Source: Oscillospiraceae bacterium (GTDB lineage Bacteria > Bacillota > Clostridia > Oscillospirales > Oscillospiraceae). From it: a stretch of 53,456 bases of DNA. The DNA lies in assembly GCA_015068025.1 (NCBI GenBank), contig SVLH01000010.1, positions 1 through 53,456 of the forward strand, written 5' to 3'. Under the pieces are notes generated by a model. That model searched no databases. It saw only the letters and a program-made list of their open reading frames with translations, and was not told where the DNA came from. The position numbers and the translations under genes are program-made. Shown one piece after another: positions 13,423-49,675 of this stretch (its first letter is position 1; each line of letters starts with the position of its first letter).

Positions 13423-13890
13423 ATGGCGGAGATCAGACTGTACCGCCCCGGCGACGAGACGGCGCTTTCCATCCTGCTGCGCCGCACACTGCTGGAGGTC
13501 AATGCCAGCCACTGTCCTGCCGATGAGATCGAATGGCTCTACAACCGCTACACCCCCGAAATGGTGGCGGAGATCGCGTCCGGCGGCCACACCTATGTGA
13601 TGACCGAGGGCGAGACCATCGTTGGCACCGGCACGGTGGTTGAGACCGGCGAGGCGGAGTGCGAGATCATCGCGGCATTCCTGCTGCCGGAGGCCATCGG
13701 CCGCGGACTGGGGCGGAAGCTGTTTACAGCGCTGGAGTCGGACGCGCTTTGCGTCAATGCCCGGCGCATTTGGCTGACCTCCTCCGAGAACGCGCTGGAC
13801 TTTTACGAAAAGACCGGCTGGCAGTATGTCTACGGCTACCGTCAGCGGGGCGGCGAACTGCACCTGCTGGAGATGGAAAAGCGGAAATAA
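13423..13890 (+). CDS. GNAT-family N-acetyltransferase
   Basis: A 155-residue GNAT protein. The fold is seen as an N-terminal MAEIRLYRPGDETALSILLR, a central strand GTGTVVETGEAECEIIAAFL, and the acetyl-CoA pyrophosphate loop LPEAIGRGLGRKLFTALE (the R/Q-x-x-G-x-G/A motif). WLTSSENALDFYEKTGWQYV then follows, with the usual Asn and Phe/Tyr of motif B. The substrate cannot be told. It is coupled to prfC with a 3-base gap and has no separate promoter. A strong terminator begins 4 bases after its stop. Confidence 0.9.
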   Translation: MAEIRLYRPGDETALSILLRRTLLEVNASHCPADEIEWLYNRYTPEMVAEIASGGHTYVMTEGETIVGTGTVVETGEAECEIIAAFLLPEAIGRGLGRKLFTALESDALCVNARRIWLTSSENALDFYEKTGWQYVYGYRQRGGELHLLEMEKRK

Positions 13891-31825: not shown

Positions 31826-33118
31826 TCAGCCGTTCTGAGTCTTGTACTCGTTGGCCCAACCGGCAACGAAAGCGGTCTTCACGCCTTCCCAGTTGGCATC
31901 GGTCTGGTCGGCAGAGTAAGCAGCCAGAGCAGAGACAACACCGGCGCGCCAGCTGTCAACGTTGGGGGTGTGGTTGAAGGCCCAGGTCACGGTGTAGTTG
32001 CCGTCAGCCATGTAGGCATTGGCGTCATTGAAGAACACGTTCTCGGACTCCTTGGCGTTCTTGAAGGGGATGGGGCCAAACTGCTCGGCCATCATCGTGG
32101 TGCCCTCGTCGGAGGTCACGACCCAGTACAGGAAGTCCAGAGTGGCCTTGATGTCAGCCTCGGAAGCCTTGGCGTTGACGGCCCAGCAGTTTTCGGTGCC
32201 GCAGGCCAGACCGGCCTTCTCTTCGCCCTCAACACCGCAGTAGATGGGGATCATGGCCAGATCCTCGGCCTTCAGGCCGGCTTCGATCAGACCAGCATAC
32301 TCCCAGGTACCGTTCTGATAGAACACAGCCTTGCCGGCCTTGAACTCACCGGTGGACATGTCGCCGGTGCCGGAGGTCAGAGAGGTCTTGTCCATGGAAG
32401 CGTTGTTGATGTACAGATCCCAGATGTTGCGATAGTTGTCCAGATAGGCGCCGGTGATCTCGGCGGGCTGCTTGGTAACATTGTCATCGCGGAACTCATA
32501 GTACAGGGGCATGTTGGCCAGGTGGCCGGAGAAACGTCAGGAGGAGGAGCCGTCCAGACCAGCGGAGGAGAAGGCGTCGAAGCCCAGAGCGTCCTTGCGG
32601 GCGTGGATGTCCTCAGCGATGGTCTTCAGGGACTCGAAGTCCTTGATGTCGGCCAGCTCATAACCGGCCTCGGCCAGCAGAGCCTTGTTGACGATGATGC
32701 CGAAAGCCTCGTAGCAGTAGCCGATGGCCTTGACAGCGCCGTTCTCGTCGGTCAGGTTGAAGTCGGAGGTGGTCATCTCACCCAGGACCTGGCTGCCGGT
32801 GAAGTCCAGGCAGTAGTCGCCCCAGTCGAGCAGGCCCTGTGCGTTGCCGCACTGGAACAGGGTGGGCATAGCGCTCTTGCCCATTTCGGCAGTCAGGGTC
32901 TCGGAGTAGGTGCCGGAAGCGGCGGTCTCAACCTTGACTTCCACGCCGGTCTTCTCGGTGTACAGCTTGGCCAGATCCTGCCAGGCCTGATCGGCTTCGG
33001 GCTTGAAGTTCAGGTAGTAGACAGAGCCGGTAGCGGCGGTGTCGTCCTTCTTTTCGCCGCAGGCAGCCAGAGACAGAACCATAGCCAGAGCCAGCAGCAT
33101 TGCGAAAAACTTCTTCAT
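31826..33118 (-). pseudogene. Maltodextrin-type ABC solute-binding lipoprotein with one in-frame TGA
   Basis: The reading frame from the ATG at 33118 to 31826 is one continuous solute-binding protein of 430 codons, apart from a single TGA at 32537-32539. The first part has a lipoprotein signal (MKKFFAMLLALAMVLSLAAC). The text across the stop is GLDGSSS-stop-RFSGHLANMPLYYEF. Homologues have Trp here (S-W-R-F-x-x-H-L-A-N), so TGG to TGA is the simplest explanation. Both halves keep normal codon bias, so the change is recent, a sequencing error, or tolerated by read-through (the next base is C, a leaky context). The permeases and enzymes downstream look intact. Confidence 0.85.
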
Positions 33119-34429: not shown

Positions 34430-36118
34430 TCAGCTCTGCTGCATCTTTTCGAAGCGGATGTGCTTGTCGCAGACTTCCAGCGCCGCCTCCCGATGGGTCA
34501 CGATCAGAAGCGTACGGTCGGTCATGGAGCGCAGGTTTTCCAGCAGCTGCATCTCGGTTTGTCCGTCCAGCGCGCTGGTGGCCTCATCCAGAAGCAGAAC
34601 AGGACGATCCGACAGCAGGGCGCGGGCGATGGCAATTCGCTGCATCTGCCCCTCCGAAAGACCGCTTCCCCGCTCGCCGAGGAACGTTTCCAGTCCATCG
34701 GGCAGTTCATCCACAAACTTCTCTGCACAGGCGATCCGCAGCGCCTGCCGAATGGCATCCTCCTGTTTCATCAGCTTCGGATCGCCGAATGCGAGGCATT
34801 CCCGGATCGTGCCGGAGAGAAGGTGATTCCCCTGCGGCACATAGGCGAACAATCCCCGCCACACAGCTTCCATAGGTCGCTGGGTCCCATCCGCATCCCG
34901 CAGATATGCACTTCCCTCGTGCAGGGGATACAATTTCAGCAGCAGCTTCAGGGTCGTGCTCTTTCCGCAGCCGGAGCCGCCGGTAAAGGCAACGAATTCT
35001 CCTTTATGGATCTCCAGATTCAGGTTCTGCAGCACCGGAGAACTGCCGTCCTCCTCGTAGGAAAAGCAGGCATTTTCCAGACCCATGGCATCGAACCGTT
35101 CCGCATAGTAGGTTCGGATCTCCTCCTGCGGGAAGGGGCTTTGTGCGGAATCGAGGGGATATGCCTCCACTTCCATCAGCCGCTCGGCGCTGGCTGTCAT
35201 GATGGAATACTGCCCCAGCACAGAAGAGATGGTGCTCAGGGGCGCATCCAGCAGATTGACCAGATACAGCACGCTGGACATGGTGCCGTAGGTCAGCGTT
35301 CCCTGCAGGATCCCCCAGCCGCACAGGCCGACGCCCAGCGCCTGAATACCAGCAAAGGCGCCGCTTACCGCGCTGTGTCCGAAGAGCAGCACGCCTGCCC
35401 GGCGCATTCTCGCCTCGCCCAATTCCTTCATGCGGTCACCGGCCTGACCGACCGCAGCCTCTTCCTGCGTAAAGGTGCGGATCACCAGCAGGCTGGAAAG
35501 CCGCTCCTGCAAAAACACGCGCACCCGGCCATCCGCCTGCTGCACCGCTTTGTGGTTCTTTCCCACCCATTTGCGGAAGATATGCGATCCGGTCAGGATC
35601 AGGAGCCCGCCGGGAATCAGCAGCCAGATCACAGCAGGAATGATCTGAAAAAGTGCAATGACCGCGCCAAAAATCCGCACCAGCATGCCGCTCACATTCG
35701 GCACGATCTGCACCAGAGCAGATTCCACCACCTGCACATCGGAGGTGATGCGGGTGATCCACTCGCTGGAATGAACCCCGGAGACCCTGGCATAGTCACG
35801 GCGAAGCAGCTGGGAGAAGGTCCGCAGCCGGAACCGCCGTTCCAGCGCCACTTTTCCCCGCTCCTCCACATAGCGACCCGCGATCATCAGCAGCATGGAC
35901 AGCAGCGACAGCGACACAAACAGGATCAGATCCTGGCGAAAGGCGTCGCGCAGGCCTGCGGCCGCACTGTTCACCACATCGCTGAGTGCAAAGGCAAAGG
36001 AAATGCACACGCAGCTTTGTGCAACGCGGATCAGACCCAGCAGCAGGATCCACCACTTTGCCGATCCGGAAACCGTCCAGATCCAACGAAGGGTGCCGCC
36101 GTCCTTTTTCCTTTTCAT
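34430..36118 (-). CDS. ABC exporter, fused membrane and ATPase domains
   Basis: A 562-residue MsbA-type half-exporter. Six membrane helices occupy residues 1-300 (WWILLLGLIRVAQSCVCISF; GGLLILTGSHIF), with no N-terminal C39 peptidase domain. The ATPase has Walker A AFTGGSGCGKSTTLKLLL, Q-loop YVPQGNHLLSGT, signature RGSGLSEGQMQRIAIARALL and Walker B VLLLDEATSALDGQ, then the switch His in LIVTHR. It is the last gene of the eleven-gene operon, 4 bases after the FrhB-like gene. With no Wzx/Wzy, it is the likely export route for the product. Confidence 0.94.
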   Translation of the reverse strand: MKRKKDGGTLRWIWTVSGSAKWWILLLGLIRVAQSCVCISFAFALSDVVNSAAAGLRDAFRQDLILFVSLSLLSMLLMIAGRYVEERGKVALERRFRLRTFSQLLRRDYARVSGVHSSEWITRITSDVQVVESALVQIVPNVSGMLVRIFGAVIALFQIIPAVIWLLIPGGLLILTGSHIFRKWVGKNHKAVQQADGRVRVFLQERLSSLLVIRTFTQEEAAVGQAGDRMKELGEARMRRAGVLLFGHSAVSGAFAGIQALGVGLCGWGILQGTLTYGTMSSVLYLVNLLDAPLSTISSVLGQYSIMTASAERLMEVEAYPLDSAQSPFPQEEIRTYYAERFDAMGLENACFSYEEDGSSPVLQNLNLEIHKGEFVAFTGGSGCGKSTTLKLLLKLYPLHEGSAYLRDADGTQRPMEAVWRGLFAYVPQGNHLLSGTIRECLAFGDPKLMKQEDAIRQALRIACAEKFVDELPDGLETFLGERGSGLSEGQMQRIAIARALLSDRPVLLLDEATSALDGQTEMQLLENLRSMTDRTLLIVTHREAALEVCDKHIRFEKMQQS

Positions 36119-36122
36119 TGGA

Positions 36123-37205
36123 TCATCCTCCGTACTTTTTCAAAATCAGGGGAATATCGCAGCAGCCGTCCTCCCCTTTTCGGGCATAGTCACGAAACAG
36201 CAGCTTGCGCAGGATCGTTTCCTTCGCCGGGGTCTGCAGCGCCTCCTGCTGTGCATCCTCCCGGCTGCTCTCCAGCACAACGGCACGGGCGCCGGCAGCA
36301 TCCAGCAGTTTCAGCGCGGCCTCCGTTCGGGCGATCACCAGCGAAGTGCCTTTTCCGTCCGCTAGCTCCGGACGCGTTTTCTCAATGCCCCAGAAATCAC
36401 CGATGGTAAGATCGAAGGGCAGTTCCCAGCGGGTATAGGGACACCGATGGCAGCTGGGTCGCAGCGCCAGACATTTCAGATAGATCCGGCAGAAGGCGTC
36501 CCGCCCCATAGGCATGGCCCGCTCCTGTCCGCCCACGGTAAAGGCCACCGTGTGTCCGTCGTTGCAGCTGCGTTTATCCCGGAAACAGTAGGCCTGCAAA
36601 GGCCCTCCCTTTTCCAGGTATGCCACATAGTCCCGCCACAGTCCCGGAGACTGCACGCCGCGGCAGACCAGCGCCGCAAGGAGCAGCCCCGCCGGCTTCT
36701 CCCCGAAATAACGGAGCATTCCGTCACACTGGCAGGGTGTGCCGGTAAACAGCACCCGACGCCCCGCCGCCAGCGCTTCCGCCACAGCAGCGTATGCGCC
36801 GTCCATATCGCTTTGTACATACTTGGCCTTGCGCATGGGCGCAATGTCGTCGGAAAGCACATGACGCACCCGGAATTTCTCGTCAAACACGGCGCCGCAG
36901 ACCAGTCCGCCCTGTGCGAGGATCTGCTCCGCCAGCAGGGAAAAAGCCCCACCGGAGGTGCTGGCGCGCAAAAGCGCCTCCTCTTCGGCCCGCACCGCAA
37001 AGGCACGACCCGCACAGCCCTCCGGAGCGGACAGCGCCGGGCAGGCCGCCTGACATTTCCCGCAATCCACACAGCGTTCCGCATCGATCACGGGATAGGA
37101 AAAGCCCTCCTCGTCCGCCGTCATGGCAATCGCACCCGCAGGACAGACCGCCGCGCAGCTCCCGCATCCGAAGCAGTCTGCTTTATTCTCAAACAGCCGA
37201 ATCAT
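36123..37205 (-). CDS. Ferredoxin-F420 dehydrogenase beta-subunit-like protein
   Basis: A 360-residue Fe-S flavoprotein-like protein. The N-terminal 2[4Fe-4S] domain is CFGCGSCAAVCPAGA and CVDCGKCQAACPALS. The FrhB domain follows: RASTSGGAFSLLAEQIL, then VLFTGTPCQCDGMLRYFG and LTIGDFWGIEKT. Such proteins regularly pair with polysaccharide pyruvyl transferases in surface-glycan loci of gut bacteria; their reaction is not known and probably does not use F420. The gene overlaps the pyruvyl transferase gene by 17 bases. Confidence 0.9.
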   Translation of the reverse strand: MIRLFENKADCFGCGSCAAVCPAGAIAMTADEEGFSYPVIDAERCVDCGKCQAACPALSAPEGCAGRAFAVRAEEEALLRASTSGGAFSLLAEQILAQGGLVCGAVFDEKFRVRHVLSDDIAPMRKAKYVQSDMDGAYAAVAEALAAGRRVLFTGTPCQCDGMLRYFGEKPAGLLLAALVCRGVQSPGLWRDYVAYLEKGGPLQAYCFRDKRSCNDGHTVAFTVGGQERAMPMGRDAFCRIYLKCLALRPSCHRCPYTRWELPFDLTIGDFWGIEKTRPELADGKGTSLVIARTEAALKLLDAAGARAVVLESSREDAQQEALQTPAKETILRKLLFRDYARKGEDGCCDIPLILKKYGG

Positions 37206-38235
37206 CGCACACCAAACCCTTCAAATAGTTCAGAGAAGCCGCTCTCCGCTGCTCCATCTTTGCCCAGACACGCTCATATTCCGGCTGTACCGGATGATCC
37301 AGCGCATCGGAAAGTTCCAGATATGCCAGCAATTCTTCAATGCGGCCGTTACGGCTGCTCAATTCCCCGCCAAGGCGCTGTACCTGAAAACGCCGCTCAA
37401 AAATCATGGAAAACACCATACCGTGGAACGAGTTGGTAAACACACAGCGGGCACCGCGGATGGCGTCCAGCCACTCCGTTACACCGGTGCCGTTCCACGC
37501 CTCCATGCCCAGCTGCGGCACGAACGACGCAGTAACTACCCGCAGGGGCAGCCCCAGTTCCTGTGCCTCGGCCTGGGCCTTTTCCACCAGCGCTTCGTCA
37601 TATTTCAGAAGGAACAGCAGCACATAGTCCTCTGCCGGTAGCGGCGCTGCCAGTTCCCGCCAGTGGGCTCTGTCCGGCAGAAGGGTGGGATCCAGGCAGA
37701 CCACCGCATCCCGCCCGGTGAGTTTTTTTACCAGCTGACAGCCGCTTTCCTCCCGCACGGAGATGGCGCGGAAGCCGGCCAGCTGGGCTGCCGCCCAGAC
37801 CTCCGCCTTCTCGGGCAGGGCATCGGCGCCGAAGCTGGCGGCATAACTGCAGCGCTGCTCCGGCCGTGCAAAGGGCAGAAAATATCTGGCGTCGGCGCCG
37901 GGGATCCGGAAATTCCAGATCTGATCGCTGCCCGCCACAAACAGATCGTAGTTCTCTGCAATGGGATCTGTCGGCGCATAGGGCGCAGAGATCTCCAGAC
38001 GTTCCTTCCGGAACGCCGCAAACAGGGCGGCGCGTTTTTGTCCCGCCGCCTGCATCCGCCGCGCAAACAGGGACTGTGCGGCAGACGGCTGAGCAGACTC
38101 CGCCCCCTGCGGTGCATTGATCTGCACAAACTCGCTGTCCGCACCCAAAACGGAAAGCGTATGCTGCAGCGCATGCGCCTGCAGCACCGCGCCGTAACTG
38201 TCCGCTTCATGGAAGGTCAGAATACCAACTTTCAT
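37189..38235 (-). CDS. Polysaccharide pyruvyl transferase family protein
   Basis: A 348-residue protein of the PS_pyruv_trans family, which puts pyruvate ketals on sugars. It begins MKVGILTFHEADSYGAVLQA, the usual N-terminus (T-F-x-x-x-x-N/S-Y-G-A-x-L-Q). FVAGSDQIWNFRI, SYAASFGAD, ISVREESGCQLVKKLTGRD and VFTNSFHGMVFSMIF are the other landmarks. It overlaps its upstream glycosyltransferase gene by four bases (ATGA) and sits with the FrhB-like gene as usual for this pair. Confidence 0.92.
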   Translation of the reverse strand: MKVGILTFHEADSYGAVLQAHALQHTLSVLGADSEFVQINAPQGAESAQPSAAQSLFARRMQAAGQKRAALFAAFRKERLEISAPYAPTDPIAENYDLFVAGSDQIWNFRIPGADARYFLPFARPEQRCSYAASFGADALPEKAEVWAAAQLAGFRAISVREESGCQLVKKLTGRDAVVCLDPTLLPDRAHWRELAAPLPAEDYVLLFLLKYDEALVEKAQAEAQELGLPLRVVTASFVPQLGMEAWNGTGVTEWLDAIRGARCVFTNSFHGMVFSMIFERRFQVQRLGGELSSRNGRIEELLAYLELSDALDHPVQPEYERVWAKMEQRRAASLNYLKGLVCDDSAV

Positions 38236-39083
38236 TTTCCAAGGTCCTTTCTCGCCTGCTGCACCGCGCTGTAAACCAACGCAGCTTTCGCCCTGCGTTC
38301 CACAAGGGCGATCTGCTGTTCACATCTGCTGCGGTCACAGTCACAGTACTTCAAAATCTCTTTCTGCAGGACGGTAAAGTTTTCAATCCGGCGAAGCATA
38401 TCCTGATATGATCGCTTCCGGCTGGAATGACTGCCGCTGCGGCGGCAATATGTATGCAGCTTTTCATCCAGATACCCACAGACCGTTCTGCTGGCAGGCG
38501 GCAGAAGCAGCTGCAGATTCTGCCCCTCCGGCGACTCCGGGATCTGCTTTTCCGGATAGCAGGCAAAAAACAGCTCCGTCCGCACCATATAGCAGCCGGC
38601 ATAGCAATAGGTCCGGTCGGTGAGCAGCGCCTCAAACACATTCTGGTCGGCTCTGTCCGCCGCCCGGGCGCTTTCTTCCAGCACCGTTCCCGTATCCGCG
38701 TCCAGCACCGTACCGTTGCTGCGCACCATACCCGCCTGCGGATGCTCCATCAGCCAAAGCGCCTTTTTCTCCACGCTGTCCGGCGTCAGAAGATCATCGG
38801 CGTCGCACCATGTAAAAAACGTTCCGGAGATCAGGGGAAGGGCGGCATTCATGGCGGCGGCCTGTCCCCCATGGGGGCAGAACAGCAGACGAGTCTCGAC
38901 CCCCGCCGCTGCCAGCATATCGGCAGACTGGCGCATACATTCGCCCGAATCGTCCGAAGATCCGTCATCCACCAAAATCAGCTCCAGCGGCCGCCAGGTC
39001 TGGGCGGCCACACAGTCCAGATAGTCCCGCAGCCACGGCATGGCGTTATAAACAGGCGTTACCAGCGTCACCAGCGGTCTCAT
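38232..39083 (-). CDS. Family 2 glycosyltransferase (third in the operon)
   Basis: A 283-residue GT-A enzyme. The nucleotide-binding start is TLVTPVYNAMPWLRDYLDCV, followed by ELILVDDGSSDDSGE. The metal D-x-D region is FTWCDADDLLTPDSVEKKAL. The C-terminal third is Cys/Arg-rich (YCDCDRSRCEQQIALVERR), unlike the other two glycosyltransferases here, with no membrane helix. It is coupled by four-base overlaps to the genes on both sides. Confidence 0.92.
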   Translation of the reverse strand: MRPLVTLVTPVYNAMPWLRDYLDCVAAQTWRPLELILVDDGSSDDSGECMRQSADMLAAAGVETRLLFCPHGGQAAAMNAALPLISGTFFTWCDADDLLTPDSVEKKALWLMEHPQAGMVRSNGTVLDADTGTVLEESARAADRADQNVFEALLTDRTYCYAGCYMVRTELFFACYPEKQIPESPEGQNLQLLLPPASRTVCGYLDEKLHTYCRRSGSHSSRKRSYQDMLRRIENFTVLQKEILKYCDCDRSRCEQQIALVERRAKAALVYSAVQQARKDLGK

Positions 39084-39745
39084 GGTCTCTTCATCCTTTT
39101 GCGCAGCAGCGCCGCGTAATTTGCCATTTCATTGCTTCTTTGCAGGCGACCCGTATTGGTCAGGTGCAGGCGGCGGCGCAGCGTCACGGCGGAAAGCTGC
39201 GCAGTTTTGATGCCTGCGTCCCGCAGCTTCATCTGCCAGTCCACAGTCTCGCCGCTTTTCATGGTCTCATCAAACAGTCCCACCGTTTCAAAAACGGTCC
39301 GGCGGATCAGGCTGCACCCGGGCAGCACACCGCCGTAGGCTCCATTTCGGGGGCGAAGTTCCGCCTGCTGCGCCTCCGTCAGTTCCGGGGAAACAAAATC
39401 CTCCGCCATGGCAAACACCGCGTCGGCTTTCTGCTCTGTCATGGCCGCATACAGCGCATCCAGCGCACCGGCGGTAAAGAGATCGTCGGCATCCAGCAAG
39501 GCGATCAAATCGCCCTTTGCCGCACGCAGACCGACATTGCGGGCAGAGGCCGCACCGCCCTGCGCCTTTTGCAGCACGGTAACGCCCAGCTGCCGCGCCA
39601 CTTCGGCCGTGCGGTCGGCAGAGCCGTCATCCACCACGATGATCTCCACCGTTCCGGGCCAGTTCTGCGCCCGTACGGAGGCCACCGCCTCTGCCACGTA
39701 CCGCTCTGCCTGATAAGCAGGAATGATAACGGATAAGGATCCCAT
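39080..39745 (-). CDS. Family 2 glycosyltransferase (second in the operon)
   Basis: A 221-residue, compact GT2 protein: LSVIIPAYQAERYVAEAVAS, EIIVVDDGSADRTAEVARQL, GGAASARNVGLRAAKGDLIA and LLDADDLFTAGALDAL. The C-terminal part (LRRRLHLTNTGRLQRSNEMA) strongly resembles that of the 43.2-kb glycosyltransferase (LRRIHNDNISLTHRKVGREN), so the two may be duplicates with different acceptors. Its start codon overlaps the stop of the PP-loop gene before it. Confidence 0.92.
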   Translation of the reverse strand: MGSLSVIIPAYQAERYVAEAVASVRAQNWPGTVEIIVVDDGSADRTAEVARQLGVTVLQKAQGGAASARNVGLRAAKGDLIALLDADDLFTAGALDALYAAMTEQKADAVFAMAEDFVSPELTEAQQAELRPRNGAYGGVLPGCSLIRRTVFETVGLFDETMKSGETVDWQMKLRDAGIKTAQLSAVTLRRRLHLTNTGRLQRSNEMANYAALLRKRMKRP

Positions 39746-40902
39746 CAGATCAGCTCCTTTTCGTTCCGGGCTTTCTCTGCCGCGGCTTTGGCTGCACGCA
39801 GAATACGAACACGGCGCTGCGCGGCGGGCGGCAGTTCCATCCCCCGCTGCTTCATGACCTGCAGCACCTCGGCATAATGCTGGCTGTGGGCGCTGACAGC
39901 GACCTTCGCCAAAATCTCGTCCTTGTTTTTATAAAAAGCGGCGACATCAAAGGCCTCCGCAAACACTTCCAGTTTATCAAGTGCATACAATGCGGCCTGA
40001 GTACGGATACACTTGCCGCACTGTCCGCAGTTTTGCTCTCTCCCATAAATGCACGGGTGCAGGTATTTCCGCGCCGGCGGGAACTCCGAAAGCTCCTGCA
40101 GCTTTTGGATCCGGGTCACATTGCCGCCGGAGGAATAAAACACCGTGTTGTCCGTTTCAAAGCAAAACAGGGGCAGCAATTCATAATAGGCGCTGTTTTC
40201 CTGCACAAAGGAAAAGCGGGAAAACTCGTATGCGCCGGAGTTCAGGAACGTCCCGAACAGCTTTTGCAGTGCCAGTACTACCGCAGGAAGCCGGAAGCCG
40301 GCCACCGCCAGATAGTTTTCATCCTGGATCAAATGCAGATTGGAACTGACTGTGACCACAGAGAGGGGATACTCCTTCGCGATCCCCTGCCGGGCTCGCC
40401 GAGCCATGGTGCGCAGCATCGCCTCGTTATCGGCGGACTCCAGCGCACCGTTGCTGGCGATGAGCAGATGGGTCAGGCGACGGCTTTTCTCCTGCGCCGC
40501 AATGTGGTGCATCAGGGTGTACATACAGTCCACGCCGCCAGTCCAGCCGGTGCCCACTGCCCCGGCGCAGGACAGCGCTTCGTCCGTCACCGGCGCATGA
40601 ATGGCGATGGGATGATAGATCTCCATATTGGCCGCCATAGGCGGGATCAGGTACTGCTCCAGCTGATATTTCAGCCGCCGGGTCAGGGGCGCCTCGCAGA
40701 CGATATCCTCCCCCATACGCATAGCGGTGGTCAGCACGCCGACAACAAAGGCGTCCAGCCGGTCATCGGTGAGACAGGCGCCGTATTCCGATTCCACGGT
40801 AAACCACGCCTCCGATCGGCACGCTCCAATGGTGATCTGCGCGCAGAGGGACACAGAGTCCCCATTTTGGCGCAGATAGGGCTTTTCAATTCGAATGGCC
40901 AT
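39745..40902 (-). CDS. QueC-like PP-loop enzyme, copy 3 (motif TGGVDC)
   Basis: A 385-residue protein. An N-terminal ~115-residue domain (EAWFTVESEYGACLTDDRLD) is shared by all three copies. The PP-loop at 119-126 is G-W-T-G-G-V-D-C, where the usual SGGxDS has Thr for Ser and Cys for the last Ser. The C-terminal zinc-type site is HPCIYGREQNCGQCGKC (C-x7-C-x2-C-x2-C), as in QueC. PP-loop enzymes adenylate a carboxylate or carbonyl using ATP. The substrate is unknown. It is the most divergent of the three in its motif. Confidence 0.85.
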   Translation of the reverse strand: MAIRIEKPYLRQNGDSVSLCAQITIGACRSEAWFTVESEYGACLTDDRLDAFVVGVLTTAMRMGEDIVCEAPLTRRLKYQLEQYLIPPMAANMEIYHPIAIHAPVTDEALSCAGAVGTGWTGGVDCMYTLMHHIAAQEKSRRLTHLLIASNGALESADNEAMLRTMARRARQGIAKEYPLSVVTVSSNLHLIQDENYLAVAGFRLPAVVLALQKLFGTFLNSGAYEFSRFSFVQENSAYYELLPLFCFETDNTVFYSSGGNVTRIQKLQELSEFPPARKYLHPCIYGREQNCGQCGKCIRTQAALYALDKLEVFAEAFDVAAFYKNKDEILAKVAVSAHSQHYAEVLQVMKQRGMELPPAAQRRVRILRAAKAAAEKARNEKELI

Positions 40903-40908
40903 ACGTTC

Positions 40909-42105
40909 TCACTTCCATGCAAAGGGTATATCCGCGTCCTGATCCCGAAAATACGTATCCGTGACGCGCACAGCCGCCGACAGCAATCTGGCCCGCCGTT
41001 CCAGCTGCGGCGTAATGGGAATACTGGCTCGCACCAGTTCCTCCAGCCCCTCCTCATGGATTCCGCCGGTGCGCATCAAAGCCCGGGCGATAAACTCCTC
41101 CCGGTTTTTTCGGTACAGTTCCAGATCATAGACCGCCGCGTACCGATCCAGCTTTCCCAGACAGTCAAACACGACCTGGGCGATGGAACATTTCCTGCAG
41201 ACACCGCAATTCCCCTCCGAGGTGAAGCAGGCATGGAGCCAGCGGTAGGATGGCTCCCAATCAGAGAGGGCGATCAGCTTCTGAAGGCGGGTAACTTCAC
41301 CGCCGATCGGATAGAATGTCGTCCCCCCTGTTGAGCAGGTCATCACCGTGAGCAGATCATAGTAACAGGCATCCCCTCTCACCTTTTCCGGATCCAGCAT
41401 GAACTTTTTAAAGGGATTGGAGGTGGAGAGATAATAGACGGAAAAAAGGCCGTTCAGCGCGAGGATCGCAGAAAAGATCCGGTAGGTAACGGCATCCGAA
41501 ATGTAATGCAGTCCGTTGACGCTCATCACATCCACCAAATCCTCGTTGAAGTTGGTGTCGATGCAGACCAGTTCCAGCCCCTGCTCATCGGCAAAACGGC
41601 GGGCAAAGCCGCAGGCCGTTTCAAAATTCTCCCGATAGCGCTTCCCCTTGAAGGCACCCACATTCAGCACCGTCAGATGGGTCAGGGCGAAGCCGGGCTG
41701 CACCCTGCCGGGCATGTGCTGCATCACGGTATACAGAGAGTCCACGCCGCCGGTAAAGCCGGTACCCACCGCGCCGGCGCCGGGCTCCGTTCCCGGCGCA
41801 GCCTCCGCATGGATGCGAAAGCGCTTTCCGATGCCGGAATTGGCGATGGTGGGAATATGGTAGGTCTCCAGCTGATGCAGCAGCCGTTCCGATACCGGTG
41901 CATCACACCGGATATCCAGCCCCCTCCGAAACGCCATGGCCAGCAGCGCCATGACGAAGGGATCTGCCCGGCGGGTAAAGAAGCGGGCATACCGCTCCTC
42001 CACGCCAAACCAGAGGATCGTTCCCCTGTCTCCGATGCTGACCGGCGCACAAAGGCGTGCCTGTCCGTCTACGGTTTCGACATAGGGTTTTCCGATGCAG
42101 ATCAT
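40909..42105 (-). CDS. QueC-like PP-loop enzyme, copy 2 (motif TGGVDS)
   Basis: A 398-residue paralogue of its two neighbours. The N-terminal domain is ILWFGVEERYARFFTRRADP, then FVMALLAMAFRRGLDIRCDA and LLHQLETYHIPTIA. The PP-loop reads GTGFTGGVDSLYTVM (118-123). The Cys cluster is HACFTSEGNCGVCRKC (C-x6-C-x2-C-x2-C). The C-terminal tail is longer than in the others (TDTYFRDQDADIPFAWK). It overlaps copy 1 by four bases and ends 6 bases before copy 3. Confidence 0.85.
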   Translation of the reverse strand: MICIGKPYVETVDGQARLCAPVSIGDRGTILWFGVEERYARFFTRRADPFVMALLAMAFRRGLDIRCDAPVSERLLHQLETYHIPTIANSGIGKRFRIHAEAAPGTEPGAGAVGTGFTGGVDSLYTVMQHMPGRVQPGFALTHLTVLNVGAFKGKRYRENFETACGFARRFADEQGLELVCIDTNFNEDLVDVMSVNGLHYISDAVTYRIFSAILALNGLFSVYYLSTSNPFKKFMLDPEKVRGDACYYDLLTVMTCSTGGTTFYPIGGEVTRLQKLIALSDWEPSYRWLHACFTSEGNCGVCRKCSIAQVVFDCLGKLDRYAAVYDLELYRKNREEFIARALMRTGGIHEEGLEELVRASIPITPQLERRARLLSAAVRVTDTYFRDQDADIPFAWK

Positions 42106-43238
42106 ACAGAGCCCTCCTCCAGATTCTTCATCGCCCGCCGGAACTGCTGTTCACAGGCGTAGGCCGCAGGGGGGATGGAGACGTTCCGCTCCTCCAGCAG
42201 ACGAAGCGTTTCATCATAGAGATGATTGCCCCGGTTCGCCAGGACAAAGCCCATACGCTGGGGAAGCGCCTTTTCGTAGGCGGCAAGGTCGAATACTGCC
42301 TCGTAACGCCCAAGCGCGCCCAGGGCGTACAGGGTCGTCATATCGCGGGCACACTTTTTGCAGTGTCCGCAGTTTTTCTCCCCCACGCGTCCGTAGACGC
42401 AGGGATGCAGCCATCGCCAGGACGGCGGCCATTCCGCCAGCGCCGCCAGTTTCTGCGATCTCTGAACCTGAGAACCGGAGAGGTAGATGGCCAGTGATTC
42501 CGTCTGGGCACAGTGCACCGTCAGCAGATCGTAGGTGGCGCTGTTGTGCAGATCAAATGTAAACTGGGCAACATCGTGCCCGGAGGAAAGCAGATACACG
42601 GAAAACAGGCTTTGCAGCGCCATGGCACCCGCCAGATTCCGGAAGCTGTACACATCCAGAAACCGCTCCGGCAGCGCCTCGGGCAGGTTGGAATCCAGCG
42701 CCACCAGCTCCAGCCCGTTTTCTGCCGCAAAGCGGCGGGCGTTGTCACAGGAGCGGCGGAAATTCATACGGAAGGCCGCCCCCTCAAACACGCCGACATC
42801 GAACAGCGCCAGATGGGTCAGGGGATACGCGCTTTCCTTCCCGTGGGTCATGACGGAATACAAACTGTCCACCCCGCCGGAAAAACCGGTGCCCACAGCG
42901 CCCCTGTTTCTGACACGCTCCGCCGCAAGGGGCGCACGGACGGAAACAGGCCGGTACAGCGTCTCTGCCGCCGCCAGAGATGGGATGAGGTATCCCTCCA
43001 GCTGATAGTGCAGCCGCTCGGACATGGCCGTGACACACGCAATGTCCTGCCCGCTGCGCATGGCCATGGGCAGCAGCGCCATCACGAAGGCATCGCTGCG
43101 TTCGGCGCAGAGATATGCCTCCTGTGCTGTCTCCACCCCAAACCAAAGAGTCGTGCCCCGTCCGTTTACCGAAACGTCGGCACACAGGCGGGTTTGTTCT
43201 TCCACGCGCTGCAGATAGAGTTTTCCGATCTCAATCAT
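42102..43238 (-). CDS. QueC-like PP-loop enzyme, copy 1 (motif SGGVDS)
   Basis: A 378-residue protein with the canonical PP-loop, GTGFSGGVDSLYSVM (120-125), so the most likely to keep ordinary ATP-pyrophosphatase chemistry. The N-terminal domain has LWFGVETAQEAYLCAERSDA and LHYQLEGYLIPSLA. The Cys cluster is HPCVYGRVGEKNCGHCKKC (C-x9-C-x2-C-x2-C). The ATG at 43238 overlaps the end of the glycosyltransferase gene and is chosen for GAGAGTAAAG upstream; the frame is open to 43274. Confidence 0.86.
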   Translation of the reverse strand: MIEIGKLYLQRVEEQTRLCADVSVNGRGTTLWFGVETAQEAYLCAERSDAFVMALLPMAMRSGQDIACVTAMSERLHYQLEGYLIPSLAAAETLYRPVSVRAPLAAERVRNRGAVGTGFSGGVDSLYSVMTHGKESAYPLTHLALFDVGVFEGAAFRMNFRRSCDNARRFAAENGLELVALDSNLPEALPERFLDVYSFRNLAGAMALQSLFSVYLLSSGHDVAQFTFDLHNSATYDLLTVHCAQTESLAIYLSGSQVQRSQKLAALAEWPPSWRWLHPCVYGRVGEKNCGHCKKCARDMTTLYALGALGRYEAVFDLAAYEKALPQRMGFVLANRGNHLYDETLRLLEERNVSIPPAAYACEQQFRRAMKNLEEGSV

Positions 43239-43923
43239 GCTCTTTACTCTCTTTTCTCTGTTGGCGGATGGCATCTGCCATCAGCGCCATGACGTTCTCT
43301 CTCCCGACCTTCCGATGGGTGAGAGAAATATTGTCGTTGTGAATCCGGCGCAGGTACAGCGGTTCCTGAATGCAGTGCTTCATATGAATCCCCGCCGTCC
43401 AGAGCCGCGTGATCCAGTAGGTATCCTCCCCGTATGCCAGATCCTCCCGGAAGATGCCGCATGTTTCAAACACCTCTTTGCGGACACAGCAGGCAGGCAG
43501 ACAATACTCGACCTTTGCATTGAGCAGCTGCCGCTGCCGTTCGGTCATGGCCGCCTCCGGCCCGTCAAAGAAGTTTTTTACAAGGCTAAACACCACCTGA
43601 CAGTCCGGACAGGCATCCAGATAGGCCACCTGCTTTTCCAGCTTGTCCGGCGTCCACAGATCATCTGCATCCAGAAAGGCAATGACCTCGCCCCGCGCCT
43701 GCGCAATCGCCAGATTGCGGGTGGCGGAGATTCCGCTGTGTTCTTTGCGGATATACCGCACTTCCGGCCGGGCGGCGGCCACCGCCGCCGTATCATCCTC
43801 GGACCCGTCATCCACAACGATGACCTCAAAATCCCGATACGTCTGGGCAAATACGCTGTCCAGCGCCTGTCCCAGAAAGGCCGCGCTGTTGTAGGCGGGA
43901 ATGAGGACGGAGACCCGGGGCAT
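43231..43923 (-). CDS. Family 2 glycosyltransferase (first in the operon)
   Basis: A 230-residue GT2 enzyme: VSVLIPAYNSAAFLGQALDS, FEVIVVDDGSEDDTAAVAAA, GISATRNLAIAQARGEVIAF and LDADDLWTPDKLEKQVAYL. GEDTYWITRLWTAGI contains the E-D motif of the catalytic-base region. The ATG at 43923 overlaps the PqqD-like stop (TGATG); a GTG just before it is an alternative. No membrane segment is seen. Confidence 0.92.
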   Translation of the reverse strand: MPRVSVLIPAYNSAAFLGQALDSVFAQTYRDFEVIVVDDGSEDDTAAVAAARPEVRYIRKEHSGISATRNLAIAQARGEVIAFLDADDLWTPDKLEKQVAYLDACPDCQVVFSLVKNFFDGPEAAMTERQRQLLNAKVEYCLPACCVRKEVFETCGIFREDLAYGEDTYWITRLWTAGIHMKHCIQEPLYLRRIHNDNISLTHRKVGRENVMALMADAIRQQRKESKEHD

Positions 43924-44339
43924 CACTGCTCATTCAGGATGGGCCAGCCCATCTCCACATCCACATCGTGAACGGGATCGGCCAGGATCAGATCCTGCAC
44001 CTCGGAGAACTCATCCACAGAGAGAACAAAGCCGTCCTGCAGGGAGGCAGCGCCGATCTCGGGCATCGCTGCCGCGCCGCCCTCTGCTGCCACGATGATC
44101 TCCTTTTCCAGCAGGGCGGCAATGAAGGCATCCAGCTGCTCCGCCATGTCTGCAGGGCAATCGGGCAGCGCCTGCACCGCAGTGAGGATCTGTGCGGGTT
44201 CGGCGCCGGCCACCAGCGCGTCCAGCACCGCGGAGCCGAGGCTGCTGGTGCCGTAATACATACCGGTGGTAAAATTGATTACGATGGCCTGACCTTCTGC
44301 CATGTCATAAAACATCTTCTGTTCATTCAGCTTGTACAT
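43923..44339 (-). CDS. PqqD-like peptide-recognition protein with acidic C-terminal tail
   Basis: A 138-residue protein. Residues 1-85 fit the PqqD/RRE winged helix (YDMAEGQAIVINFTTGMYYG, TSSLGSAVLDALVAGAEPAQ, DMAEQLDAFIAALLEKEIIV). A Gly/Ala linker (AAEGGAAAMPEIGAA) leads to a tail of about 40 residues with SVDEFSEVQDLILADPVHDV and a final MGWPILNEQ. A similar D-P-[IV]-H-[ED]-V-D...GWP tail is, to my recollection, shared by other PqqD proteins in tailoring clusters. RRE domains bind leader peptides. The ATG at 44339 is preferred by spacing to AGGAG; another at 44345 overlaps the kinase stop. Confidence 0.82.
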   Translation of the reverse strand: MYKLNEQKMFYDMAEGQAIVINFTTGMYYGTSSLGSAVLDALVAGAEPAQILTAVQALPDCPADMAEQLDAFIAALLEKEIIVAAEGGAAAMPEIGAASLQDGFVLSVDEFSEVQDLILADPVHDVDVEMGWPILNEQ

Positions 44340-44341
44340 AC

Positions 44342-45376
44342 TCATAACTCCTTTTCAATAAACCTGCGCAAAGCCGCAGGATTTTTTTTAAGATCTCTGC
44401 TCATCCGCATTTCATAAACCGGCAGTCCGGAGAGCCGCTGCGCCATTTGCCGCACCAGCGCAGCGTCCCGGTTGCGGCTGACCTGTATCGCGCTGGTGTG
44501 GAGCATCTGCACCATAGCCGCCCCCGGCGCTATGGGGCGAATGGCCGGCTCTCCGTCATCCGGTCCGATCACCGGCATCACAACCGCACCGATCTCCAAT
44601 TCCGGTGCAAAGCGTTCTCCCGGGATAAAGAACTGCAGTTTTCCGTTGCACCACTCCGCGTCGGGCGGAACGCTGGGCTCACCCAGAGACGGAAGGCGGG
44701 CATACATATCGGGATTGACCGCCACCGTGGTATAAATCGGCATGGCCCGCAGCGACCCCGAAGCGGAAATCAATGTATAGTCATCGGACACAAAGTCCAT
44801 CCCCTCGGTCATGCAGGATACGGAGAAGGTGGACTTTCCGCTGCCGCCCCGGCCCACGACCAGAACGCCCTTTCCGCCCGCACCCACCGCGGCCGCGTGC
44901 AGCAAAATCAAATCGCTTTCACTGGCCCAGCGGGAAACCAATCCCACCAGCGTGTGTCCGTAGACGGCGTAATCCACCGTGTCCGGCTTCTGTCTGGTGA
45001 AATAAAAGTGTCTGCGCACAGTATCGACGCCGTACATCTGCGCCTCACTGACCTTCAGGAGGCCGGTGTCATCCCGGCTCTCCCAGACACCGGGACGCTG
45101 CGTCATCTCTTCCGGCAGGATCTCGGTACTGACACCGTACCAGTAGAAGAACACGGCGTCCGGCGTGCCTGCCTCCTGCACCACATGACTCTGCACGCTT
45201 CGCATGGCGGCATCCCGCATGTCCCGATCTTCAAAGCACAATTCCAGCAGCCGGCCGCAGACTCTGATGCGGAAGGTTTCCCAGACGATGGGTCTTCTCG
45301 CAAGTCTCCGGTCCAGCGCCTGAAAAACCTGTGTCAGAGGAACCTTTTCCCCTGCCCGGTTTGTTATTTTCTCCAT
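44342..45376 (-). CDS. HPr-kinase-like protein
   Basis: A 344-residue protein of the HPrK C-terminal fold. The P-loop is VVGRGGSGKSTFSVSCM (175-183), preceded by ILLHAAAVGA with the conserved His160 and followed by FVSDDYTLI (Asp198-Asp199), as in HPrK. The N-terminal ~150 residues differ from true HprK. Such kinases accompany Firmicute lasso-peptide genes, where PadeK phosphorylates a C-terminal Ser; no HPr is near. The ATG at 45376 has CGGAGGAT upstream. It is the first gene of the eleven-gene operon. Confidence 0.85.
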   Translation of the reverse strand: MEKITNRAGEKVPLTQVFQALDRRLARRPIVWETFRIRVCGRLLELCFEDRDMRDAAMRSVQSHVVQEAGTPDAVFFYWYGVSTEILPEEMTQRPGVWESRDDTGLLKVSEAQMYGVDTVRRHFYFTRQKPDTVDYAVYGHTLVGLVSRWASESDLILLHAAAVGAGGKGVLVVGRGGSGKSTFSVSCMTEGMDFVSDDYTLISASGSLRAMPIYTTVAVNPDMYARLPSLGEPSVPPDAEWCNGKLQFFIPGERFAPELEIGAVVMPVIGPDDGEPAIRPIAPGAAMVQMLHTSAIQVSRNRDAALVRQMAQRLSGLPVYEMRMSRDLKKNPAALRRFIEKEL

Positions 45377-45524: not shown

Positions 45525-46562
45525 ATGAACCGCTACAACGAACGGTTGTCCACGCTTTGCAGCATCGGCCCCACGGTTCGGGCGCTGCTGAAGGGCTGCT
45601 GCTCCGGTCTCGCCGACGGAGCCGGCCCGGCAGCCGTTTTGTCCGCCATGGATCTTGAGCGGCTCCCGCCCCAGATCTCCGGCATTCTCGCTCTGGAGGC
45701 CGCTGCCGCCGATTATGCCGGCGTCCCCGCGGGTGCGATCCCCCGCCTGCGGGGCATCGTGAAGTACGCCCACACGCTGTACGCCGGCATGACGGCCGGG
45801 CTGTGCGCACTGGGGCAGTTGTGCAACAACGCCTCCCTCCCCGTGCTGCTGCCGGATTCCACCGCGATCCGTTTCGGCTATTCCATCCCGCTTCGCCAGC
45901 ACACATGGACCGCGGAACTCTCCGTTCCCGCCGAACATTATGCGCATTTTCTCTCTCTCGCCCGGGAAGCGGGCTGCTGCGTGACAGCCACCCGTTTCGG
46001 CGCCACCATCAAACGGCAGAATACAGAAGCCGTCCTGATCCGCAAAAACACCTCCGCAAAGGCATTTCTGTGGGAGGGCGCAGAGCCCGTCCGCATCGGC
46101 GGCACAGACTTTCTCCGCCCTGAAAAAAATCGGCTGCTGGTCAGTCTGCTGGAGGACGGATTTCTCCTTCTGCGCAGCGCAAATCCCGGAAGCCGGCTGG
46201 TCAGCTGGACGCTGGACATGCACGCCGCTTCCTCCGGCGCCGACTGGAAAACTGTCGCCGCCCTTGCAGCCGGGCGAGGCAGCGCCCGTCAGCTCCGCGT
46301 GATGCTGGAGGTCTACCAGACCCTTTCCCTGCAGCCGCTGGGCGAAGACGTGCTGTCCTTCTTCCCTTCCCGGCAGGAAACAGAATCCCTCGTGCAGCTC
46401 CTGGAGGCCAGCCGCACCGCCCTTGAGCGGAAGCACCGCATCCGGCGGCACTGGTACATTGCCCGGCTTGAAAGCGCGGACAACTCCGCCGCAAAAGCGC
46501 TTCCCCTGTTTTGCAGAGGAATCCTCCGCACCCTTTGGCTCCGCCTTACTCCAGTTCGCTGA
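45525..46562 (+). CDS. Divergent nucleotidyltransferase-like protein, probable loss of catalytic site
   Basis: A 345-residue protein on the strand opposite to the rest of the locus. Its overall plan (helical N-terminus, a central alpha/beta region LPVLLPDSTAIRFGYSIPLR, then HTWTAELSVPAEHYAHFLSL, then DGFLLLRSANPGSRLVSWTL) resembles the NTP_transf_5 protein next door. Where that has K-G-A-V-M and G-D-A-D-V-L-I, this has P-D-S-T-A and T-W-T-A-E-L-S-V, lacking the D-x-D metal pair. The similarity is weak and by eye. GC3 bias is high, so it is a real gene. AAAGAGG precedes the ATG at 45525; an ATG at 45519 is an alternative. Its last 17 bases overlap the convergent gene. Confidence 0.65.
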   Translation: MNRYNERLSTLCSIGPTVRALLKGCCSGLADGAGPAAVLSAMDLERLPPQISGILALEAAAADYAGVPAGAIPRLRGIVKYAHTLYAGMTAGLCALGQLCNNASLPVLLPDSTAIRFGYSIPLRQHTWTAELSVPAEHYAHFLSLAREAGCCVTATRFGATIKRQNTEAVLIRKNTSAKAFLWEGAEPVRIGGTDFLRPEKNRLLVSLLEDGFLLLRSANPGSRLVSWTLDMHAASSGADWKTVAALAAGRGSARQLRVMLEVYQTLSLQPLGEDVLSFFPSRQETESLVQLLEASRTALERKHRIRRHWYIARLESADNSAAKALPLFCRGILRTLWLRLTPVR

Positions 46563-47790
46563 TGTCCAGCCCGATCCCCCGAAGCTGCTCCTGATAGGCG
46601 GTCAGCTTTTCCTCGTCCGTCTCCAGCATCAGCCTGGAGGATTCGATCGCCCGGTCTCTCCGCTCCGGATGGGTGGCGATCTCCCAGCCCCGCACCGCCC
46701 AGAACACCGGCAGCAAAACAGGTGCTTTCTGCAACGCAGGATAGCGATGCTTCAAATAGGATGCCGGTGGGAACACACGCCAGAAAAACCACCGCAGCTT
46801 CTTCCGCAGCATGGAGCTTTCCCCGTCGGAGATCCGGATGGCAGCGGACACCACATCAGACTGTTCCTTGCCGTAAATGCCGCCGCGCAGCGCCGTTACG
46901 GTGATCTGCTCGGCAACAGCGCTGAACGGCGCGCCGCGGAACCAGCAGTCCAGCAGCTGCAGGATGTTCCGATAGAATGCCAACAGCCGCAGTTTTTCAA
47001 GTTCCTGCTCCATGTAGGCTTGATCCATGTTGGGATGCGCTCTGTAAAATACATAGAAATCGCAGATGCTCTTTACGGGAGCCACACCTCCCCGATAATG
47101 TCTGACAAAGTGTATCAGCATGAAAATAAAGTGATCCTCCGGCCGCATGTGATGCAAAGAACCGGAGGGTCCTTTTTCTGCCAGCCGCCAGCCATCCCGA
47201 TAATAGTCATAATAAAGATTTTCTTCCGGTTTCGACAGGCATCTGTGCACATCGATCCTCAGCCCGTCGCAGCTCCACTGGCACTCATACCCGCAGTCTC
47301 CATCGTTATTCCAGCCGTTTTCAGTCAGCACACGCCGGATTTCGGGATACTGTTCTTCCCGGATCAACACATCCGCATCGCCCATAACGCGCAGTTCCGG
47401 CTGGGGATACAGCGGCTTCATGACCGCGCCTTTCACAAAAAGAAGATCCAGACCATGCGCATCAAACAAGGCCGTCAGCTCCCCAATGCGCTGCATCTGC
47501 CTGCCGCTGACCAGAGCCTCCTGCCGGAAGACCGCGATCAGCCGGGAAAACGCTTTCCCCGTTTTCGGCACGCCGCAGCGCACGGCACCACGCAGCGCAA
47601 GCCCCGCCAGAGATTGGCGGCACAGCACCGGAAGTGCCTGTTCCAGATCGAATCCCTCCGGCAGCGCACACGCCTCGTCATTCAGCGCGCTTCGAAGCAG
47701 CGCGATCATTCCCAATGTCTGTTGATCCACTCTGTTTTCTCTCCCTCTGTCGGTTTCGGAAAAATACACCTTTGCCTCCGGGCCGCTCAT
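46546..47790 (-). CDS. Nucleotidyltransferase family protein (NTP_transf_5)
   Basis: A 414-residue protein. The N-terminal ~110 residues are helical. The catalytic core has LDLLFVKGAVMKPLYPQPEL (Lys120-Gly121) and VMGDADVLIREEQYPEIRRV, with Asp138 and Asp140 as metal ligands. LRIDVHRCLSKPEENLYYDY and MRPEDHFIFMLIHFVRHYRG follow, the usual order in this family. Family members occur in lasso-peptide and surface-glycan clusters and transfer nucleotide to peptide or sugar; the acceptor is unknown. Its ATG overlaps the YwaF-like gene stop (ATGA). Confidence 0.9.
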   Translation of the reverse strand: MSGPEAKVYFSETDRGRENRVDQQTLGMIALLRSALNDEACALPEGFDLEQALPVLCRQSLAGLALRGAVRCGVPKTGKAFSRLIAVFRQEALVSGRQMQRIGELTALFDAHGLDLLFVKGAVMKPLYPQPELRVMGDADVLIREEQYPEIRRVLTENGWNNDGDCGYECQWSCDGLRIDVHRCLSKPEENLYYDYYRDGWRLAEKGPSGSLHHMRPEDHFIFMLIHFVRHYRGGVAPVKSICDFYVFYRAHPNMDQAYMEQELEKLRLLAFYRNILQLLDCWFRGAPFSAVAEQITVTALRGGIYGKEQSDVVSAAIRISDGESSMLRKKLRWFFWRVFPPASYLKHRYPALQKAPVLLPVFWAVRGWEIATHPERRDRAIESSRLMLETDEEKLTAYQEQLRGIGLDISELE

Positions 47791-48563
47791 ACGGCCGCCG
47801 CTTCCTCTTCACGGCAGGCGGCCGTCCGCTTATCCTTGAAATACCAGGGCAGATAGGCCAGCACATACATCACCGCGATGATAAACGTCATCACCGCCAG
47901 CCGCAGCGCAAAATTGGCCGGCAGAATGTCCAGCACGGAGGGCGCCGCCTCCGGCCGCGCCATGTACAGGTAGTTGGCGCCCGGCAGCATGACATTGACG
48001 CCGTAGGCGATCACCGCCAGGATCACCAGCGCACAGAAAGACTTGATTGCTGCGCGCACTGTGGGGCGCATTCCGTGGACGAAGATCATGTAAAAAATGG
48101 CAACATAGCCCAGGGTATGCTCGGCCCAGAACTGATAATAGCGGAAGCGGGTAGGGCCGGCATAGGTGAGCGGCGTAGGGGTAATCAGCGCAAACAGAGA
48201 ACCGGACAGCAGCCAGAAATAAACGATATCGAACAGGGACTGCTTCTTCCCCACCAGCATATAACTGCAAAAAATCACAGCCCAGCCGCACACGGCGATG
48301 GGCAGATGATCCACCGGGTTGGGCTGCAGCACCGGCATGCCCACCAACCGCCAGTAGTAACTCATCTCCGAAACAATCAGCGCAAAGGCCAGCACATAGC
48401 GGATGTTCTCCTCATGGCGGCTTTGGCGCAGGGCATCCCGCTTGCGGTAAATCAGGAAGATCACCGCCAGCATCACCAGGATCGGCGCAAGATGCGCCGG
48501 TGTGAGGAGCGAAAACTCCGCCGTGTCACCCTGCCCGAAAAAGTATCGAAAAAAGTCTTTCAT
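47787..48563 (-). CDS. YwaF/TIGR02206-type membrane protein
   Basis: A 258-residue protein with about seven membrane helices: LLTPAHLAPILVMLAVIFLI, FALIVSEMSYYWRLVG, then LPIAVCGWAVIFCSYMLV (the L-P-L-x-x-C-x-x-A pattern), AEHTLGYVAIFYMIFVHGM, NVMLPGANYLYMARPE and NFALRLAVMTFIIAVMYVLA. H-x-x-x-Y in the fourth helix and the N-Y-x-Y-M region are family marks. The function is unknown. It is translationally coupled to the nucleotidyltransferase. Whether these two belong to the exporter operon's pathway is inference from position. Confidence 0.88.
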   Translation of the reverse strand: MKDFFRYFFGQGDTAEFSLLTPAHLAPILVMLAVIFLIYRKRDALRQSRHEENIRYVLAFALIVSEMSYYWRLVGMPVLQPNPVDHLPIAVCGWAVIFCSYMLVGKKQSLFDIVYFWLLSGSLFALITPTPLTYAGPTRFRYYQFWAEHTLGYVAIFYMIFVHGMRPTVRAAIKSFCALVILAVIAYGVNVMLPGANYLYMARPEAAPSVLDILPANFALRLAVMTFIIAVMYVLAYLPWYFKDKRTAACREEEAAAV

Positions 48564-49536: not shown

Positions 49537-49675
49537 CGGAACTTCCTTTCCTTTTGCCAAAAAATGTTGAATTATTCCTACGTCAGCTGACACAGACCCG
49601 TCTGCAGTGGGTCGGAAAATATTACGAAAGGAATAGCGACCCGCTGTGTACAGGCGGGTAACGCTTCAACTATAT

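Follow-up and report, generated by a model that had tools for sequence, protein, structure and literature searches.

A recurring kinase and glycosyltransferase gene system whose RRE protein carries a near-invariant C-terminal tail, a possible built-in handle for glycan assembly

Background

Proteins with the PqqD fold of the RiPP recognition element (RRE; RiPP, ribosomally synthesized and post-translationally modified peptide) belong to several kinds of pathway: in PQQ and mycofactocin pathways an RRE protein accompanies a near-invariant cofactor-type peptide, and cassettes built around HprK-related kinases include a PqqD-like partner. Here we compare with such systems an eleven-gene operon (34430-45376, minus strand) of an Oscillospiraceae bacterium. 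The operon lies in what we call the window, the whole stretch of 53,456 nucleotides that was analysed (GenBank assembly GCA_015068025.1, contig SVLH01000010.1, positions 1 to 53,456). The genome assembly comprises 1.54 Mb in 39 contigs, with a completeness of 71.3%, and the bacterium shares its family with Papillibacter cinnamivorans (Clostridia).

In pseudomycoidin biosynthesis, PsmK is reported to phosphorylate the C-terminal Ser, and the one or two hexoses on this residue are attributed to PsmN (PMC9266682). A 2025 survey describes YxxP as the motif that is recognised in lasso systems and binds in the alpha3/beta3 cleft, reports that many RRE systems act on separate precursors, and finds that 21% of PF05402-matching proteins exceed the size of a discrete RRE without carrying another Pfam annotation (PMC12710340). 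The original prediction for our operon proposed an undescribed pathway to a peptide-linked glycan. That remains the best class of explanation, although the candidate peptide is now one that the prediction did not mention, the PqqD protein's own tail.

Results

A conserved system with a tailed RRE protein

The features that bear directly on the tail and its putative partners are as follows.

44342..45376, minus strand: HprK-like kinase of 344 aa, with Walker A GKS and DD unchanged across 13 relatives
43923..44345, minus strand: RRE (PqqD-fold) protein, 138-140 aa, with a variable linker and a near-invariant C-terminal tail
43929..44009, minus strand: part coding for the C-terminal tail, residues 111-137 of the 138-aa form: FSEVQDLILADPVHDVDVEMGWPILNE
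43231..43926, minus strand: GT2a, family 2 glycosyltransferase (GT2; Pfam 126.8 bits)
39080..39745, minus strand: GT2b, family 2 glycosyltransferase (Pfam GT2), with a homologue in the Paenibacillus cassette described below
38232..39083, minus strand: GT2c, family 2 glycosyltransferase (Pfam GT2), with a homologue in the same cassette
34430..36118, minus strand: ABC exporter, 562 aa, transmembrane and ATPase domains (ABC_tran 94.7, ABC_membrane 62.5 bits)
45525..46562, plus strand: divergent NTP_transf_5-like protein without D-x-D, 82 bits to a divergent Papillibacter counterpart, no Pfam match of its own
46546..47790, minus strand: NTP_transf_5 protein with D-x-D intact, 134 bits

The RRE protein ends, behind a variable linker, in a tail with the consensus FxEVQDLxLADPVHDVDxxxGWP. 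Its PF05402 (PqqD) score of 22.1 bits falls just below the gathering cut-off of 23.4, and we retain the RRE assignment because structure prediction returns the three-strand, three-helix PqqD/RRE fold; a precomputed PF05402 label is present on about 30 of the roughly 120 relatives listed. (A total of 294 homologues was reported, and our figures rest on the 120 listed.) When members are compared, the tail is under stronger constraint than the RRE domain, as judged by nonsynonymous divergence (dN) only because many synonymous (dS) values were saturated. This constraint sits on residues 111-135 and not on the whole C-terminus, since residues 100-112 are only 23% identical between the window protein and that of the Paenibacillus locus L010. 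In the structure model residues 91-110 are confident (block means 83 and 90), a strand is placed at 108-111 and the end is disordered. Three of four distant members carry an FxxP motif (FEPP, FEAP or FEKP) between RRE and tail, and this motif together with the modelled strand may represent a leader plus an arm presented in cis.

Among the RRE matches examined, the tail is restricted to this gene context. Our RRE-protein model matches 181 of 295 Paenibacillaceae genomes, only five of which, those with the cassette described below, score over the full length (positions 1-138, 196-201 bits); the best E-value in the other 176 is 5.9e-12 or weaker, and among the matches listed every row from outside the cassette scores at most 48.2 bits and ends at or before position 111. 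On plasmids, 10 of 11 matching records align with the RRE protein (P0125) to residue 102 at most, short of the tail, and the eleventh, from Crinalium, matches 96%. A search with the tail alone, in which candidate lengths were held to 0.55-1.75 times 56 aa, gave one protein of 94 residues and one of 41, both on contigs no longer than 1833 bases. We rejected these as stand-alone tail peptides and read both as fragments, because the 94-residue protein still bears the end of an RRE. A PDB sequence search with the tail peptide gave nothing useful. Searches of open-licence literature for such systems or related chemistry listed no description of the tail, which does not by itself prove its absence from print.

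Two further PqqD matches in the window genome (C31) match no window protein, and the region has genes for an integrase and for metabolism as well as a radical-SAM/PqqD protein. At L004:16667-18106 (minus strand) a radical SAM/SPASM protein that begins with a PqqD domain adjoins an Orn/Lys/Arg decarboxylase-type protein.

The core of HprK-like kinase, NTP_transf_5-like protein, PqqD/RRE protein and GT2s, in many cases joined by an ABC exporter, is found again in Papillibacter and further Clostridia, in Paenibacillus/Cohnella and on a plasmid of the cyanobacterium Crinalium, so that the association across genera for which the original prediction had asked does exist. Homologues of the RRE-tail protein, HprK and GT2 occur together in all 11 loci compared, an NTP-like protein in nine and an ABC protein in six, counts that include the degenerate locus L015 and several loci cut by contig ends. 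PP-loop homologues are present in three of the 11 (one of them L015), and the pyruvyl transferase with FrhB also in three. The proposed signature of PqqD beside two or more PP-loop genes is consequently not what forms the core, there being no PP-loop homologue in the Paenibacillus/Cohnella cassette, and the PP-loop, pyruvyl-transferase and FrhB genes are accessories of the system. Independent occurrence, the outcome that was to speak against the prediction, was seen for these accessory genes only and not for the kinase, RRE-tail protein and GT2.

In the Papillibacter operon there are three GT2s, and the protein encoded next (472 aa) carries PdaC, DUF3298 and I42-inhibitor domains; the L021 locus additionally holds a family 4 glycosyltransferase and sugar-nucleotide enzymes. 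On the Crinalium epipsammum plasmid pCRI9333.04, genes for PqqD, a nucleotidyltransferase, HPr kinase, an FkbM methyltransferase and a glycosyltransferase stand in a row, and then, on the opposite strand, come those for a further glycosyltransferase, a TPR protein, another nucleotidyltransferase and an ABC transporter. A rabbit metagenome-assembled genome (MAG) that carries the intact locus L006 also holds L015 (4600-5100 and 5759-6941), a degenerate second copy of the system whose RRE gene is interrupted by an in-frame stop and is without the tail His, and whose PP3 homologue is in two pieces.

The system is rare in genome samples, as indicated by the few matches across family, order and phylum: two of 300 genomes in the family sample (the window genome itself and G032), one of 394 in the order sample (itself), and four of 398 in the phylum sample, where the match is full-length in the window genome and G837 and covers positions 7-83 in G834 and 15-95, in a broken frame, in G949. 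In the class of G837, one genome of 10 matches, G837 itself.

Kinase and NTP_transf_5-like proteins

The operon kinase scores 21.6 bits against Pfam HprK, well below the cut-off of 33.3, and we keep its identity because the Walker A GKS and DD residues are invariant across the 13 kinases compared. A PDB sequence search with the kinase gave nothing useful. Its matches to the NCBIfam models TIGR04352 (41 bits), TIGR04355 (35) and TIGR04249 (21.5) are all below cut-offs; the likeness to HprK_rel_A, HprK_rel_B and SynChlorMet ScmC cassettes thus consists of sub-threshold matches to those models. No Pfam Radical_SAM match was found among the eleven operon genes, which sets the operon apart from the HprK-related cassettes of NCBIfam as well as from PQQ and mycofactocin pathways, from which it differs further in having the peptide fused to the RRE.

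The D-x-D motif is present in 9 of 11 NTP proteins, and the window holds one intact and one degenerate copy. The intact protein (46546-47790) is possibly the active partner, a candidate whose membership in the system we infer. The Crinalium locus too pairs a degenerate copy (L024:6367-7431, without D-x-D) with an intact one.

A minimal six-gene cassette

Four Paenibacillus genomes and one Cohnella genome (L010 to L014, about 7727-13695) carry a minimal form of the system, with genes for NTP, HprK, RRE tail, GT2b, GT2c and ABC. The cassette is 91-95% identical over ~6 kb, from ~25 nt before the NTP start codon through the ABC stop, while its flanks are mostly unrelated apart from common upstream stretches of ~50-130 nt and flank segments that L013 and L014 share at other positions. 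The shared short upstream stretches look promoter-like. Identity in the rpoB region is 78-80% in the four Cohnella pairs against 91-93% for the longest cassette piece, and 80-92% in Paenibacillus pairs against 91-95% for the cassette. In the pair L010 and L014 cassette and rpoB identities are equal (91.2 and 91.6%), so that this pair is uninformative on transfer. Between genera, cassette identity above that of rpoB suggests that the six genes of the minimal form were recently transferred together. Gaps within the L010 cassette do not exceed 59 nt and leave no room for a separate precursor gene, and inspection by eye of small open reading frames (ORFs) around the window operon and the L010 cassette found no tail-like or leader-like peptide.

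Operon layout and accessory genes

All eleven genes lie on the minus strand in the predicted order and at the predicted coordinates, with Pfam support for the GT2, pyruvyl transferase, FrhB and ABC genes; the three GT2 proteins score 126.8, 110.2 and 72.1 bits. The genes are co-directional, and all 10 junctions fall within -17 to +6 nt. Five are the four-base overlaps (-4) that had been described as making up most of the junctions, the other five being -8, +6, -1, -17 and +4. The remaining operon genes are as follows.

42102..43238, minus strand: PP1, PP-loop protein, SGGVDS, C(x)9CxxCxxC, modelled fold QatC/QueC-like
40909..42105, minus strand: PP2, PP1 paralogue (42% identity), TGGVDS, C(x)6CxxCxxC
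39745..40902, minus strand: PP3, PP1 paralogue (39% identity), TGGVDC, C(x)7CxxCxxC
37189..38235, minus strand: polysaccharide pyruvyl transferase family protein, accessory (PS_pyruv_trans 83.5 bits)
36123..37205, minus strand: FrhB/FdhB-like iron-sulphur protein, accessory (FrhB_FdhB_C 51.9 bits)

None of the three PP-loop proteins has a Pfam match above cut-off, and all three show SGGxDS-type loops and Cys clusters. PP1, the one of the three that was modelled, has a QatC/QueC-like fold with 302 residues matched to QatC, and so resembles these enzymes instead of a lasso cyclase; its one asn_synth match (E 0.19) is far below cut-off. A PDB sequence search with the PP profile gave a single match, to a response regulator (E 0.04), and nothing useful. 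PP1 shares with QatC (of QatABCD), QueC and Cap9 the fold, the SGGxDS-type loop and the CxxCxxC cluster, but the first Cys spacing in PP1-PP3 is 9, 6 and 7 instead of 8, there is no Pfam QueC match, and three copies stand in a glycan operon. PP3 and GT2b, adjacent in the window with a one-base overlap, form a single polypeptide in L006 (9090-10916) and L008 (7062-8888), a fusion that suggests sugar decoration at least as much as peptide chemistry. We considered a deazaguanine substrate for the PP-loop proteins and regard it as unlikely: PTPS, the QueD family, was not found in any of the three PP-bearing genomes, all of them MAGs, one 71% complete and two without stated completeness.

Beside the operon, a SBP_bac_8 sugar-binding protein (31826-33118, minus strand) is split over two ORFs that match successive parts of the profile, and looks broken. 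The NTP_transf_5 gene has a 4-base overlap with that of a TMEM164-family membrane protein (47787-48563, minus strand, 124.6 bits), and a Mom family protein (PF25680, 86.1 bits) is encoded at 49646-50296 on the plus strand.

Comparison with described systems

Like the pseudomycoidin pathway, the operon system has an HprK-like kinase and an NTP-family protein with intact catalytic motifs. Compared with pseudomycoidin-type lasso clusters (PsmK, PsmN) and discrete lasso RREs (TbiB1), however, it is without a lasso protease, the cyclase family, a separate precursor and an invariant Ser acceptor, and has a fused invariant tail and several GT2s. We rejected a lasso cluster on these grounds: as predicted, the PF13471 leader protease was found neither in the operon nor in the 71%-complete genome, no operon protein gave an Asn_synthase Pfam match, and no precursor was seen. 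A Wzx/Wzy-type capsule or exopolysaccharide locus was likewise rejected, the Pfam scans of the eleven proteins having returned no Wzx, Wzy or initiating transferase, again in agreement with the prediction; one initiating transferase gene (Bac_transf, PF02397) lies on another contig of the genome. As for QatABCD, all eleven operon genes are otherwise assigned, leaving none spare for QatA, QatB or QatD, and PADLOC gave no qat match. Of the eight proteins submitted to PADLOC, only the ABC protein matched, to generic ATPases (top mad3, 105 bits), which we take as generic ABC similarity; PP1-PP3, the RRE protein, the kinase and the two NTP proteins had no match. Because the defining features of lasso, QatABCD and capsule systems are each missing, we file the system as a variant of RRE-dependent pathways.

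Discussion

That a conserved system with this tail exists is well supported; its chemistry we infer. As a tentative preference among several readings, we propose that the system has its substrate or handle built in, as the tail of the RRE protein, which would be presented in cis to the kinase, the NTP_transf_5-like protein and the GT2s, with a glycan being built there. The proposal draws on the lack of any gap for a separate precursor in the cassette, on the constraint on the tail and on its restriction to this gene context; as far as we have seen, no conserved peptide other than the tail accompanies the system. The tail would be offered to the partner enzymes by the RRE domain of its own protein. 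By analogy with PsmK and PsmN, the HprK-like kinase would phosphorylate the tail and the NTP protein would prime it with a sugar, and the GT2 enzymes could then extend the sugar chain into a phosphoglycan. The QatC/QueC-like PP-loop proteins may activate carboxyl groups, amidating or ligating sugars (or peptide), the pyruvyl transferase and FrhB-like protein may add further decoration, and the ABC protein, which has no C39 peptidase domain among its Pfam matches, would export the product.

Several observations weigh against this proposal, the most serious concerning the acceptor. No Ser or Thr of the tail is invariant among the members aligned, and position 107, although T or S in all 120 close relatives listed (of 294), is E in Paenibacillus and N in L008, which leaves the kinase acceptor unclear. 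That would leave His124, Trp132, an acidic residue or a group off the tail as acceptor, and this is the weakest step; the conserved residues that could carry a modification are His124, Trp132 and acidic ones, Asp121 among them. The tail also varies too little to be the diversified core of an ordinary RiPP, and residues 100-112 show poor conservation against Paenibacillus. The homologue set and the 11 loci were gathered by full-length similarity, which favours tail-bearing proteins. No protease is encoded within the operon. With no ABC gene labelled near the Papillibacter operon or in L021, and an ABC homologue labelled in barely more than half of the loci, export is not universal. As for the pseudomycoidin analogy, the review cited for it allows that PsmN may instead be a nucleotidyltransferase, with the sugar added by an enzyme of the host (PMC9266682).

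The difficulty over the acceptor keeps one alternative close behind: the tail may be a docking motif that is never modified, through which the RRE protein scaffolds the kinase, NTP protein and glycosyltransferases while a lipid, a nucleotide or a small molecule serves as acceptor for the glycan. A tail that is invariant yet offers no invariant Ser or Thr, is predicted to be flexible, and resembles a short linear motif on a variable linker would suit such a role, and we consider it a serious contender. The operon's lack of an initiating transferase or flippase and the leader-like FxxP sequence directly before the tail of three of the four distant members speak against docking, neither of them strongly.

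A conventional RiPP pathway, in which the RRE recruits a precursor encoded elsewhere and the tail merely positions enzymes, seems improbable to us. Separate precursors are common in RRE systems, as the survey cited above notes (PMC12710340), and the incompleteness of the window MAG could hide one; against this, the cassette moves between genera without an internal gap large enough for a precursor, and nothing tail-like or leader-like was seen by eye beside it or the operon. Slightly less probable still is an ordinary locus of exopolysaccharide or teichoic-acid type with the RRE protein and kinase as regulatory bystanders. The sugar-nucleotide enzymes of L021 fit such a locus, as do GT2, pyruvyl transferase and exporter genes, which are usual in loci of this type, but the constant company of RRE-tail protein, HprK and GT2, of which the minimal cassette mostly consists, does not, nor does the absence of Wzy and an initiating transferase from the operon's Pfam matches. 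A QatABCD-related defence system using QueC-family protein conjugation is very hard to credit, given the PADLOC result, the want of genes for QatA, QatB and QatD, the failure to find QueD-family PTPS in the three PP-bearing genomes and a cassette devoid of PP genes.

Returning to the tail as substrate or handle, a more specific and more doubtful version is that the RRE-tail protein acts as a ribosomally synthesized carrier on which glycans are assembled, phosphate and sugars being built in cis on a self-presenting peptide arm no less invariant than a cofactor site. If so, its role for sugars would match that of acyl carrier proteins for acyl chains, and it would replace a lipid carrier and initiating transferase, in a system whose minimal form spreads as a six-gene cassette. 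Modification of the tail in cis would be a departure from the usual RRE scheme of separate precursors and would give a bacterial glycan a lipid-free start. The QatC/QueC-like enzymes in glycan operons, one type of which is fused to a glycosyltransferase in two relatives, provide a second lead. For the oversized PF05402 proteins, one coherent family can now be assigned a conserved tail, together with a gene context and a role that lends itself to testing.

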